Shown here one piece after another: positions 5,992-16,404 of a DNA stretch of 64,000 nucleotides; position 1 is the first letter of the stretch, and every line of letters starts with the position of its first letter. The notes under the pieces were generated by a model that was given only the letters and a program-made list of their open reading frames with translations, did not search any database and was not told the DNA's origin. Position numbers and translations under genes: made by a program. The DNA comes from Phycisphaerales bacterium (GTDB lineage: Bacteria; Planctomycetota; Phycisphaerae; UBA1845): assembly GCA_013140575.1 (NCBI GenBank), contig JABFSN010000011.1:1-64000 (forward strand). The letters run 5' to 3'.

Positions 5992-7143
5992 CTAATCCAG
6001 CCATTTGCGTTTCTTCAGCTTCTCGGGCACGTAGGTGTCGGCGATGAACGAGAAATCCTTGTTGGACAGGGCTTCGAGTTCGAGCTTCACCCCCTGCTTG
6101 AGCATGTGCTTGATCTCCCGCTGCCAGCGTTTGTCCGCGAACCAGGGGTAGGCCATGATCTCCTTGGCCCGCACGATGTCCTTGTCGTTCAGGCGGATGG
6201 TGACCGACGCGGACAGATCGAATTCGGCCGCGTCGAAACTGCTCATGCCGATGAACCGCGCCGCGGGGACGGCCATGCGCGACGACTCGAACGCGAGGTT
6301 GATCGACCCCTGCCGGACGACGCTGTAGATGTAATAACCCCACGGGTCGTTATCGACCAGAACGTATAACGGCAGACCCAGCTCATTGGCCATTCGATGG
6401 CACAGACGTCGCACGCCGCGCGGCGGCTGACCTCCGCCGTGGATAATCATGCACTGGTGCGTCTTCCAGAAGCGGTCCTCGTTGAACCGCATCCAGATGG
6501 CCGCCTTCTCGATCAACAGAATGAACTTGGCCTCGCTCTTGACGAATTGAATGACGTGCGGCTCGACGATGGACGGCACGGCCCATCCGCCGCTGCCCAT
6601 GCGCGACAGTTCGATCTCGTCGCCGGTGTCGCGGATGGTCATCGGCCCGACCATGGACCCTTCTGGATTGGCGAAGATGCGCAGCTCTTCGCGCAGCGCG
6701 CCCAGCGTCACTTCCAGGTCTTCGATGACCGGGTCGGACTCTTCCTGCTCGTCAAACGTCTCTTCGCGCGCCCCCTCGATGGTGTGCTTGCAGTGATAGA
6801 ACATATCGCGGATGCTGGTGGTCTTGTGCTGCTGTTGCAGCTTGAGCAGCTCGCTGCTCATCAACATGGTCTGCATGAACCGCCGGGCGTTCCCCAGATC
6901 AAAAAACGGCCGGGCGGCCTTCCCGTCGCCCATCTCGATGATGCCCTTCTTCTCGTTGAAGGCCACGTTGCTCAACGACCGCACGGGAATGTTCAACGTG
7001 GGATTGTCCGCCCGATCGATCTGCTCCACCACCATCCGGGCCATGGCCTCGATCTTGTCGCGGGTCTTCGTGTCGGTCAGCCGACCGTCTTGACCGTGCG
7101 TACCCTCCCCCACCGCTCCGGGACGTCTTACCTTCTTCGCCAC
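5992..7143 (-). CDS. top6A: DNA topoisomerase VI subunit A (Spo11-like)
   Basis: The cleavage subunit of the type IIB topoisomerase. From a GTG at 7143 (AAAGG seven bases upstream) it is 383 residues. A further GTG at 7203 would add 20. The 5Y-CAP winged-helix domain carries the likely catalytic tyrosine in SIRDMFYHCK (about residue 116). The Toprim domain has the glutamate in FILLIEKAAI (about 212) and the metal-binding pair in LPLYVLVDNDPWGYYIYSV (about 264/266), closely matching the archaeal pattern. With subunit B it forms the A2B2 enzyme that passes duplex through a transient double-strand break and relaxes or decatenates DNA. It sits about 105 bp downstream of top6B on the same strand. 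Rare in bacteria, and beside the origin here. Confidence 0.93.
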   Translation of the reverse strand: MAKKVRRPGAVGEGTHGQDGRLTDTKTRDKIEAMARMVVEQIDRADNPTLNIPVRSLSNVAFNEKKGIIEMGDGKAARPFFDLGNARRFMQTMLMSSELLKLQQQHKTTSIRDMFYHCKHTIEGAREETFDEQEESDPVIEDLEVTLGALREELRIFANPEGSMVGPMTIRDTGDEIELSRMGSGGWAVPSIVEPHVIQFVKSEAKFILLIEKAAIWMRFNEDRFWKTHQCMIIHGGGQPPRGVRRLCHRMANELGLPLYVLVDNDPWGYYIYSVVRQGSINLAFESSRMAVPAARFIGMSSFDAAEFDLSASVTIRLNDKDIVRAKEIMAYPWFADKRWQREIKHMLKQGVKLELEALSNKDFSFIADTYVPEKLKKRKWLD

Positions 7144-7248
7144 ACTTACGCCTTTCTTGTCCGGCTCATCGAGATGAACAGCGCGTCGGTTTTGCCAAGA
7201 CACCGTACGTTCATCTTCGCTGCGTCCGAAATACGCGATCCTCGAACC

Positions 7249-9162
7249 CTACTTCCGGCGTCCCTTTTTCCGGGGAACTACTTTTCCCGTCATACGCGAT
7301 TCGTCATCGCCGAACAACTCGGCGCCGGCCTCGGGGCCGCCCGGGTCGCGTTCGACGATGACCGTCGAGTCGTCTTCGAGCGGGTCGCGTTTCTTGCTCT
7401 TGCGGATAAATCGGCCCTGGTCGTCGAGCTCGCGGTCGGCCAGTTCGGTGCGTTCGCGGGCGAGGGCCATTAGCTGGTCGCGGAGTTTTTTCACGCCGGC
7501 GCCGGTGATGGCGTTTAGCGCGTTGCTCACTTCGGGGATATAGCGGACGAATACGCTACGGCGCTCGCCTTCGCGCTCGGTGCGCTTGCGGCGGTTGATG
7601 AACGTCTGCAACTTCCGGCCGCATTCCTGCAATCCCAGGCGGATTTCCTTGCGGATTTCGTCGTAGTCGGCCACCGCCTCCTTCGATTCCGACGTGAACG
7701 GCACCCACACGCTGGCGAAGTGCACCATGATGACCAGCGGACCGGCCGGCAGCGACCCGGCGCTCTGCGACAGACCGTACGCCCGCCAGTTGGTGTCCGC
7801 CACCGCCTTGTAGATGGAACAATGCGATTGTTGATACAGCAGCGGCACGCGGTTGGCGAAGCGGATCAGCCGGGCCGTTTCCTCGGTGGGCAGTTCGCCG
7901 CCGTACGCGAAGCCGACTTCCATTTGAAACGGGTTGCCGCGATAGACCGTCGGGGCGCGCGTGGCGGCCGTGTAGAACTCCGCCTTCACACCCTTCAACA
8001 GACCGGCCAATATCTGCTGCGTGCCCACGGGGGCCAGACAGTCGGTCGAGGGGGCCATGATGCGTGATTTCTGAAGCGCGTCGTAAATGCGTTCGGCCGT
8101 CTGCGAGTCGATCTGCTTGACCCAGGTCAGTGGGGTGATGCCGGTTGTCTTGCAGACGGATTTGCATGTCGATGAAGTGACTCGCGAGAATTCCTTCTGC
8201 AAAAACCCGCCCACCTTCTGGCATTCCGTCTCTTTAAGCATCTTCATCAAGACGCCAAGCTCGATGCCATGGGGGTGGGGCTTGATTTCCTTCGTCTCCG
8301 GAGGCAATTCCTTGACGCCGCGATGGAAGGTCAAGCGTTCGCCGGTGGGATTGACGTAACGGATTTCCGCGTGGGGATTGGCTATGGCCGTCTGGTCGAT
8401 GTATTCGTCCACGCCCTGCCGTCCCTTGACGTAACTGGCGACGAGATCGATCTCCACGCGCGTGCCGTGCGGAAAATCGACGTCGATGGCCTCGTCGTGC
8501 ACGATGTCGGGCCGATTCTTTTTGGTGTCGATGGCCAGCTTGTAATGATGGGCTTTGGCTTTCGACGAGGTGCGGCTGACCACGCTCAACGGCTTGCCGG
8601 TGGTGATCAGTCCGTACATGCCGGCCGCGCTGATGCCGATGCCCTGTTGCCCGCGGCACATCTTGAGGCGGTGAAATTTCGACCCGTACAGAAGTTTTCC
8701 AAAGATGTTGGGGATTTGCTCCTTGACGATCCCCGGACCGTTGTCCTGAACCATCACTCGAAACCGCTCCTCGGCCGTCTGAGTCACTTCGACAACGAGT
8801 TCCGGCAGAATGCGCGCTTCCTCGCAGGCGTCGAGGCTGTTGTCGACGGCCTCCTTGACCGTGGTCAGCAGGGCCTTGCGCTTGTTGTCGAACCCCAGCA
8901 GGTGACGGTTTTTGGCGAAGAATTCGGAAACGGAGATTTCGCGCTGCTGCGTGGCCATGTGCTCGGCGGTGACGGGACCGGCGCTGGTCGACTTGCCGCC
9001 CCGTGACCGTTTGGACGGCCGCGCCTCGGTTTGGTCGCGGTCCTTGTTTCGTTCGGGTCGTGCCGCGGGCGGCGCGGGGCTGCGATCCCCGGACGAGAAT
9101 TCGAAGCCCAGTTGCGCGGTCGCGGGTTTGGTCATGGGTTGAGCGGTCGTGGTGTCGGCCAT
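7249..9162 (-). CDS. top6B: DNA topoisomerase VI subunit B (GHKL ATPase)
   Basis: The ATPase subunit, 637 residues from the ATG at 9162 (AAGGA upstream). An in-frame ATG at 9261 would add 33 arginine-rich residues and is less likely. After a charged linker, the GHKL domain shows EAVDNSLDACEEA (N box), VQDNGPGI (G1) and the CRGQQGIGISAAGMYG glycine loop. The central H2TH and transducer domains follow, with the conserved switch-lysine region around LPAGPLVIMVHFASVWVPFT. The C-terminus is charged and ends in RKKGRRK. It dimerises on ATP binding and drives strand passage with subunit A encoded immediately downstream. The two genes form an operon transcribed away from dnaA. Confidence 0.94.
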   Translation of the reverse strand: MADTTTAQPMTKPATAQLGFEFSSGDRSPAPPAARPERNKDRDQTEARPSKRSRGGKSTSAGPVTAEHMATQQREISVSEFFAKNRHLLGFDNKRKALLTTVKEAVDNSLDACEEARILPELVVEVTQTAEERFRVMVQDNGPGIVKEQIPNIFGKLLYGSKFHRLKMCRGQQGIGISAAGMYGLITTGKPLSVVSRTSSKAKAHHYKLAIDTKKNRPDIVHDEAIDVDFPHGTRVEIDLVASYVKGRQGVDEYIDQTAIANPHAEIRYVNPTGERLTFHRGVKELPPETKEIKPHPHGIELGVLMKMLKETECQKVGGFLQKEFSRVTSSTCKSVCKTTGITPLTWVKQIDSQTAERIYDALQKSRIMAPSTDCLAPVGTQQILAGLLKGVKAEFYTAATRAPTVYRGNPFQMEVGFAYGGELPTEETARLIRFANRVPLLYQQSHCSIYKAVADTNWRAYGLSQSAGSLPAGPLVIMVHFASVWVPFTSESKEAVADYDEIRKEIRLGLQECGRKLQTFINRRKRTEREGERRSVFVRYIPEVSNALNAITGAGVKKLRDQLMALARERTELADRELDDQGRFIRKSKKRDPLEDDSTVIVERDPGGPEAGAELFGDDESRMTGKVVPRKKGRRK

Positions 9163-9423
9163 CCTGGCGATCCTTGAGGCAGGTCGATCCGTCTGTTTCG
9201 ACTCGCATCTTAACCGTGCGGCCGATCGCATCAACCGGCGCGCAAATCGTTTGCCATTCACCGATTGCGATGCGCGCGGTGAGCGCGTGGCGATTGGCGG
9301 AACTTCTGCTACAATTACGGGCAGGGCGCGGCGTGCGCGAGTGTTCGACGCAACTCCTTACAGGACAATGCTTTAAACGCCGTACCGTCCGAAGCCATCG
9401 ACGAAAACGCCACGAGGGTTGTT

Positions 9424-12127: not shown

Positions 12128-12131
<4 letters not shown>
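11034..12131 (+). CDS. dnaN: DNA polymerase III beta sliding clamp
   Basis: 365 residues, a normal clamp length, with three repeated clamp folds. It starts MKLRLDRAELAEALAVAGSV and ends with the typical RSGERFLYVVMPVNL, whose terminal hydrophobic segment belongs to the peptide-binding cleft. It encircles DNA as a dimer and tethers polymerase III, MutS, ligase and other partners. A GAGGAG ribosome site precedes the ATG. Its stop overlaps the next gene by 4 bp, coupling it to the dciA-like gene. The usual neighbour recF is absent between dnaN and gyrB. Confidence 0.97.
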
Positions 12132-15180
<3,049 letters not shown>

Positions 15181-16034: not shown

Positions 16035-16050
16035 AAGGGAGGACGATCGA

Positions 16051-16404
16051 ATGGCTGCACCGTTGGGAGAGTTCAATTGCGAGAAGTGTGATCGGAAGTT
16101 CGTCATGGCGGCGCATTTGGCGCGGCACATGATCATGACGCACGGTCAGAAGAAGAAGGGCGCCGGGAAGGCCGGCGCGGCCAAGGGTCGCCCGGCGATG
16201 AAACGGCGGGGACCGGGCCGGCCGCCGGGGAGACCGGCGGGAAGGCCGGTGGGCCGACCGCTGGGGCGTCCGCCGATGGCGTCGGGCGTCGGATCGCGGC
16301 TGGGGTTGCGAACGATGTCGTTGGAGCAGATCGCGGCCGTCATCGATGCGGCGCGCGACGAGGCACGGCGTCGGATCGCGGATTACCGGCAGGCGTTCGA
16401 GTAA
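16051..16404 (+). CDS. Bacterial C2H2 zinc-finger protein with AT-hook-like repeats
   Basis: 117 residues. Residues about 9-31 form one classical C2H2 finger with exact spacing C-X2-C-X12-H-X4-H (CEKCDRKFVMAAHLARHMIM then TH). A lysine/alanine/glycine linker leads to a run of GRP-type motifs (RRGPGRPPGRPAGRPVGRPL), each resembling the core of an AT-hook or SPKK-like minor-groove binder. A C-terminal helix (SLEQIAAVIDAARDEARRRI) may mediate oligomerisation. The start has a strong ribosome site (AGGGAGG). It is likely a nucleoid-associated or regulatory DNA-binding protein; this is inferred from composition. It lies just downstream of gyrB, and MITE-like copies A and B flank it in the same orientation. 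Copy B begins 10 bp after its stop. Confidence 0.8.
   Translation: MAAPLGEFNCEKCDRKFVMAAHLARHMIMTHGQKKKGAGKAGAAKGRPAMKRRGPGRPPGRPAGRPVGRPLGRPPMASGVGSRLGLRTMSLEQIAAVIDAARDEARRRIADYRQAFE

Follow-up and report, generated by a model that had tools for sequence, protein, structure and literature searches.

What does a 117-residue protein with a single C2H2 zinc finger do in a planctomycete, and does its address beside gyrB tell us? The gene lies in the window, by which we mean the whole 64,000-nucleotide stretch of the Phycisphaerales bacterium contig that was analysed, and its product (P0001) had been read in the initial annotation as a nucleoid or replication-linked DNA-binding protein. Planctomycetes are known for unusual nucleoids, and the open-licence literature that we found describes no such nucleoid or silencing protein in them.

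Gene and coding evidence

The gene of P0001 occupies positions 16051..16404 of the forward strand (117 aa, stop included) and is supported by its open reading frame, its relatives and its third-position GC. It encodes a finger, a basic linker and a C-terminal helix, an order that we call type A. It begins with ATG, and a probable ribosome-binding site, GGGAGG, was located 8 nt upstream (16037..16042, +). The third-position GC was 0.81, to be set beside 0.84 for gyrB, 0.76 for dnaA and a span of 0.75–0.84 over dnaA, dnaN and gyrB. No Rfam family and no sigma-70-like promoter were detected around the gene. In the 608 six-frame segments of the window (at least 60 aa each), the loose pattern C-X2-C-X12-H-X3-5-H occurred once (shuffle mean 0.045); the finger pattern with its hydrophobic core also had a single occurrence, and 200 shuffles yielded none. 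It is barely conceivable that P0001 is a chance or low-complexity ORF without function. The GRPx repeat does have a short 12-bp periodicity at the DNA level, as such an ORF might, but the core finger pattern was absent from the shuffles and the finger and tail are kept at 45–58% identity across genera; this conservation across genomes rules a chance ORF out. The P0001 gene is real and conserved.

A classical C2H2 finger

The finger spans residues 8–31 (16072..16143, +), as supported by Pfam zf-C2H2 (PF00096), the AlphaFold model and conservation. Its ligands are C10, C13, H26 and H31, which is the exact C-X2-C-X12-H-X4-H spacing claimed at the outset, and F17 and L23 form the hydrophobic core; P0001 thus has the C2H2 spacing and the conserved core Phe and Leu of PF00096. 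The zf-C2H2 profile matched the protein with E 7.1e-5 and 23.5 bits (cut-off 25.2), and P0001 reached 25.8 bits, above that cut-off, in a genome-wide scan. A beta-beta-alpha fold was predicted, with strand residues 8–9 and 16–17 and a helix at 20–30 (pLDDT ~91). Profile search and structure prediction therefore both returned the finger that the initial annotation had expected. By its spacing and its predicted fold the P0001 finger is classical C2H2, and it would bind zinc. Foldseek matches were mostly C2H2 fingers, none at E 0.001 or better, and a second structure search with the type A model gave Z of at most 4.1; such scores are to be expected of so small a fold, and the C2H2 type is all that they support. 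An NCBIfam search with P0001 gave no match, and the PHROGs search gave weak matches only. Such fingers had been called uncommon in bacteria, and indeed a zf-C2H2 scan of 14 well-known control genomes matched the archaeon Methanocaldococcus jannaschii only.

The finger helix of P0001 carries M, A, H and R at positions -1, 2, 3 and 6, respectively. Among 38 distinct fingers, His at position 3, Arg at position 6 and the 12-residue Cys-His spacer were invariant (38/38 in each case), and Met at -1 was found in 36 of the 38. This count comprised loci found by protein or profile and not by motif; the motif-scan loci (L034–L074) were left out, since the scan pattern itself fixes positions. In the recognition code guanine is the preferred base of both Arg6 and His3. 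A lone C2H2 finger usually binds DNA weakly, and a single finger specifies about 3 bp. The same contact residues recur across paralogues, which favours one shared, simple target over diversified operators.

Linker and C-terminal helix

An AlphaFold2 model built on a 12-sequence alignment gave block means of 91–92 for residues 11–30, 47–58 for residues 31–80 and 94–98 for residues 91–117; its pTM of 0.32 is expected of two folded pieces on a flexible string. The basic linker with the GRP motifs (residues 45–75; 16183..16275, +; pLDDT blocks 47–55) is predicted to be disordered, and residues 32–78 carry a charge of about +14 in a protein of pI 11.5. About five GRP/RP repeats had been counted initially: the array is real, but it holds six GRP motifs and is atypical of the family. 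One of the six is KGRP, the others are PGRP, AGRP, VGRP or LGRP, and none has R before the G. Leaving aside L060, L069 and L070, which are finger-hairpin proteins labelled type A by length, at least one GRP was present in 15 of the 18 distinct type A proteins, at least two in six of them and at least five in P0001 only. The paralogue encoded in this genome lacks GRP altogether, and the array of six is a peculiarity of the P0001 copy. [RK]GRP was present in 17 of 53 distinct family proteins.

The C-terminal helix noticed initially is predicted at residues 91–116 (LEQIAAVIDAARDEARRRIADYRQAF; 16321..16398, +) with pLDDT blocks of 94–98, and it is kept in the type A alignment (consensus SLEQLxxVIxAARxEAxxRIxELQ). 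Its amphipathicity is not unusual (15% of shuffles reach its moment). Pfam matches to the type A tail were sporadic and pointed to no recognised family, none of them being H-NS, although a profile miss is not exclusionary. A comparison of the tail with the long helix of the type B proteins described below gave no sign of homology. The tail is a candidate oligomerisation or partner-binding helix; with no recognised family and no match to the type B helix, oligomerisation of P0001 is a guess.

Distribution of the finger family

A search with P0001 found relatives in 22 of 60 related genomes, its own genome counted, and the latter has a second copy (G000:C31) with 44% identity to P0001. The type A profile found relatives in 43 of the 100 genomes of the order (Phycisphaerae-type planctomycetes). 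Across the phylum (392 genomes, E 1e-5, with 12 candidates scored per genome in the rows listed), the matches for type A came from the own genome alone, and a finger-only profile run over the class gave 47 of 396 genomes, 43 of them in the order and four in two other families. Six loci outside the order (L210–L215, in G502, G527, G589 and G591) encode proteins with two fingers and a type A-like tail; the first finger is of another type and the second retains H3/R6. When genome contigs were scanned with an alignment query, 41 of 52 stretches were confirmed, labelled Phycisphaerae, Phycisphaerales, Planctomycetota or "bacterium", with one Phycisphaera mikurensis; a single-protein pattern scan of the contigs returned 595 stretches, none of which was confirmed. 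No relatives were found in the viral contigs searched, and a search of plasmids with P0001 as the query found none either.

Within the family of the window, 17 of 44 genomes had no finger and 10 had neither finger nor winged helix, so this is not a universal nucleoid protein. The finger family was expanded in G455 (7 genes), G456 (4) and G471 (6), and other genomes carried one to three genes. In the open-licence literature, searches on planctomycete or Phycisphaerae zinc fingers, nucleoid fingers and xenogeneic silencers did not find the family described in titles or abstract starts, and no paper was found on bacterial classical fingers, AT-hooks and horizontal transfer. The finger family is apparently lineage-specific and undescribed.

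Type A and type B architectures

Type B proteins have the same finger, followed by a GRP linker, a long helix (63–101 in the model), another GRP linker and a winged helix. Other forms combine the finger with a hairpin and no winged helix (L060, L069, L070), and L022 and L220 have a different C-terminal domain. In Pfam searches, 15 of the 16 type B winged-helix stretches matched HARE-HTH (best E 1.3e-6) and 9 of the 16 matched WH_Rok (best 3.3e-5). Foldseek placed Rok at the top for the type B model, first its DNA-binding domain (E 0.013, prob 1.00) and then its complex with DNA (E 0.047). VIA-align gave generic winged helices (Zur/Fur, I73R, linker histone H1 and forkhead, tied at Z 8–9.5), and Rok was absent among its best 50 matches listed; the Rok link of type B therefore comes from Pfam and Foldseek. 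Among PDB sequences, the winged-helix profile did not match any chain of that fold with a good E-value.

Across the phylum, 13 of 148 genomes had the winged helix, and the proteins that were read (e.g. L126, L129, L135) had an N-terminal helical-looking stretch and no finger. In L131 and L136 (G182 and G119), two apparent winged-helix segments follow such a stretch.

Among the 100 genomes of the order, 15 had type A, 52 had a winged-helix protein, none had both and 33 had neither. All 28 other finger genomes had the winged-helix protein, and 24 genomes had it without a finger. With phylogeny ignored, the one-sided Fisher test for exclusion gave 4e-6 over the order (3e-5 by genus) and 2.5e-4 within the 44 genomes of the window's family (1.2e-3 by genus). 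The within-family figure is the fairer one, because families f5 and f8 are nearly without the winged helix (0/10 and 1/16), and common descent may account for part of the exclusion. In two genomes with type A (L036, L076) and two with type B (L047, L094), the loci have a neighbourhood of up to three genes in common, with changed orientation, which suggests that the two types may be forms of one ancestral gene.

Genomic location

The site beside gyrB and the origin genes had been described correctly: dnaA, dnaN and gyrB were confirmed by Pfam 6.6 to 0.9 kb upstream of the P0001 gene, and the GC skew switches sign near dnaA. Both observations would suit a replication factor linked to the origin or to gyrase, which would explain the address, and so would a type B finger gene in G013:C37 (L066/L088) that follows a topoisomerase VI A gene at a distance of about 260 bp, on the same strand. 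We consider such a factor very unlikely. None of dnaA, dnaN and gyrB was found in any of the 61 loci around relatives (L034–L094, some overlapping in place; E 1e-10, over a quarter of the query), and the finger is missing altogether from the 17 family genomes mentioned above. The paralogue in the genome of P0001 adjoins another gene run, likewise in a second genome. In particular, it lies 0.6–4.5 kb downstream of three large related genes, which we take to be nuoLMN by resemblance, and a small protein; the three genes are 59–74% identical to those of L041, in the same order and strand, and the small protein is 33% identical. With relatives that have no gyrB nearby and a paralogue beside another gene run, the gyrB address looks incidental to one duplicate. 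Of the role proposed initially, DNA binding is supported and a nucleoid function is plausible, but the link to replication or the origin is not supported.

Two other features were noted in this part of the window. Directly next to dnaA are the genes of both subunits, A and B, of topoisomerase VI (5992–7203 and 7249–9261, both on the minus strand), an archaeal-type, type IIB enzyme; the genome has gyrB as well. Between dnaN and gyrB there is a 145-aa ORF (12128–12565, +) with no Pfam match at 1e-5, at what is presumably the position of DUF721/DciA-type genes.

Possible function

We put at about even the probability that P0001 is a type A member of a DNA-binding family with an architectural or global regulatory role, as judged from sequence and predicted structures. 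DNA binding is likely, given the confident finger fold, the invariant His3 and Arg6, the linker charge of about +14 and the sister proteins fused to a winged helix, and a global architectural role is plausible. The single classical finger would set its helix in the major groove, with His3 and Arg6 reading one or two guanines, and the flexible basic GRP linker would run along the adjacent backbone or minor groove and provide most of the affinity. The C-terminal helix would join copies or bind a partner, so that many weak contacts could add up to a stable, possibly bridging, complex. In type B the same finger is joined to a long helix and a HARE/Rok-like winged helix, and type A would do the job without the winged helix. 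By analogy, P0001 most likely works, in a zinc-dependent manner, on principles like those of MucR, Rok or H-NS, but does not belong to those families. Tentatively, and with more doubt than confidence, the whole group could be seen as an HMGA-type bacterial chromatin family built on a GRP chassis, in which two unrelated heads, C2H2 finger and HARE/Rok-like, are joined, swapped or dropped between genomes and type A is the lineage's minimal zinc-dependent nucleoid protein.

The invariant contact residues could also belong to a sequence-specific local transcription factor, whose finger and basic arm would read a short G-containing site at a few promoters. The GAGA factor is a single-finger factor with basic arms, H3/R6 is fixed in all 38 fingers, and up to 7 copies per genome (G455 and, with six, G471) recall regulator families. 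Yet the same contact residues across genomes and paralogues would mean the same target, one finger would specify only about 3 bp, and no neighbour conserved across the set points to a local target; we regard a local factor as rather unlikely. It is quite improbable that RNA or protein (ribosome, RNA polymerase, mRNA), and not DNA, is the ligand of the finger or linker, since His3 and Arg6 are invariant at DNA-contact positions and type B joins the finger to a winged helix of a DNA-binding kind, even though many C2H2 fingers bind RNA or protein, basic disordered tails like this linker also bind RNA, and the finger proteins listed by phmmer include MP42 of the RNA-editing complex.

Under the preferred reading, a DNA-binding family with an architectural or global regulatory role, the pairing of a classical finger with AT-hook-like linkers, traded against a Rok-type winged helix, is a concrete candidate for a nucleoid or silencing system, and it invites comparison of the two DNA-binding heads, which may serve the same role.

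Comparison with known systems

Ros/MucR proteins (PF05443) are reported, in an excerpt of PMC9779718, to be H-NS-like silencers, and the same excerpt gives Ros a 9-residue Cys-His spacer, three His, a larger globular domain and a finger in the C-terminal part. P0001 resembles them as a bacterial single-finger protein with a DNA-binding part and an oligomerising part, the latter guessed for P0001, but it differs in its spacer of 12, its small finger of predicted classical fold and the N-terminal position of that finger. The PF05443 profile was absent among all P0001 matches up to E 10 and the spacer is 12 in 38/38 fingers versus 9 in Ros, so Ros/MucR membership was rejected.

Type B shares with Rok, the Bacillus xenogeneic silencer of AT-rich foreign DNA (WH_Rok, PF23159; PDB 5zuz, 5zux), a similar order of helical region, basic stretch and C-terminal winged helix. 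To our knowledge Rok has no zinc finger. The winged-helix profile, which type B relatives match, had no match in P0001 or its genome, and Rok membership was rejected for P0001 because both lack the C-terminal minor-groove winged helix. An excerpt of PMC6212790 describes Rok as having no AT-hook-like structure. HARE-HTH (PF05066), matched by nearly all of the type B winged-helix stretches, was absent from P0001.

AT-hook proteins such as HMGA and CarD of Myxococcus, the latter a bacterial AT-hook case in an excerpt of PMC4374960, likewise have GRP cores in a disordered basic stretch. P0001 differs by its tight tetrapeptide array, with KGRP once and RGRP never, and by its finger and tail helix; the HMGA core is R-G-R-P with basic flanks, whereas five of the six GRP in P0001 have no basic residue before the G. 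Some relatives have [RK]GRP, and L053 carries GRPKGSKNK, which we take to be close to the HMGA hook. The best 60 sequence matches listed were filled by fingers, and HMGA was not among them. H-NS, Lsr2 and MvaT silencers combine an oligomerisation domain of their own with an AT-hook-like motif, and the P0001 tail had no H-NS match, a profile miss that is not exclusionary. Each part of P0001 thus has precedents, and the protein may act in the manner of MucR, Rok or HMGA-type proteins.

With eukaryotic C2H2 proteins (Zif268, Miz-1, ZNF568; PF00096) P0001 shares the spacing, the core and the predicted fold, but it is bacterial, has one finger (two in the relatives outside the order) without a tandem arrangement, and adds a basic linker. 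Bacterial fingers are usually discussed through Ros/MucR, which has a different finger, and the P0001 family extends the distribution of the classical C2H2 type by a bacterial branch.
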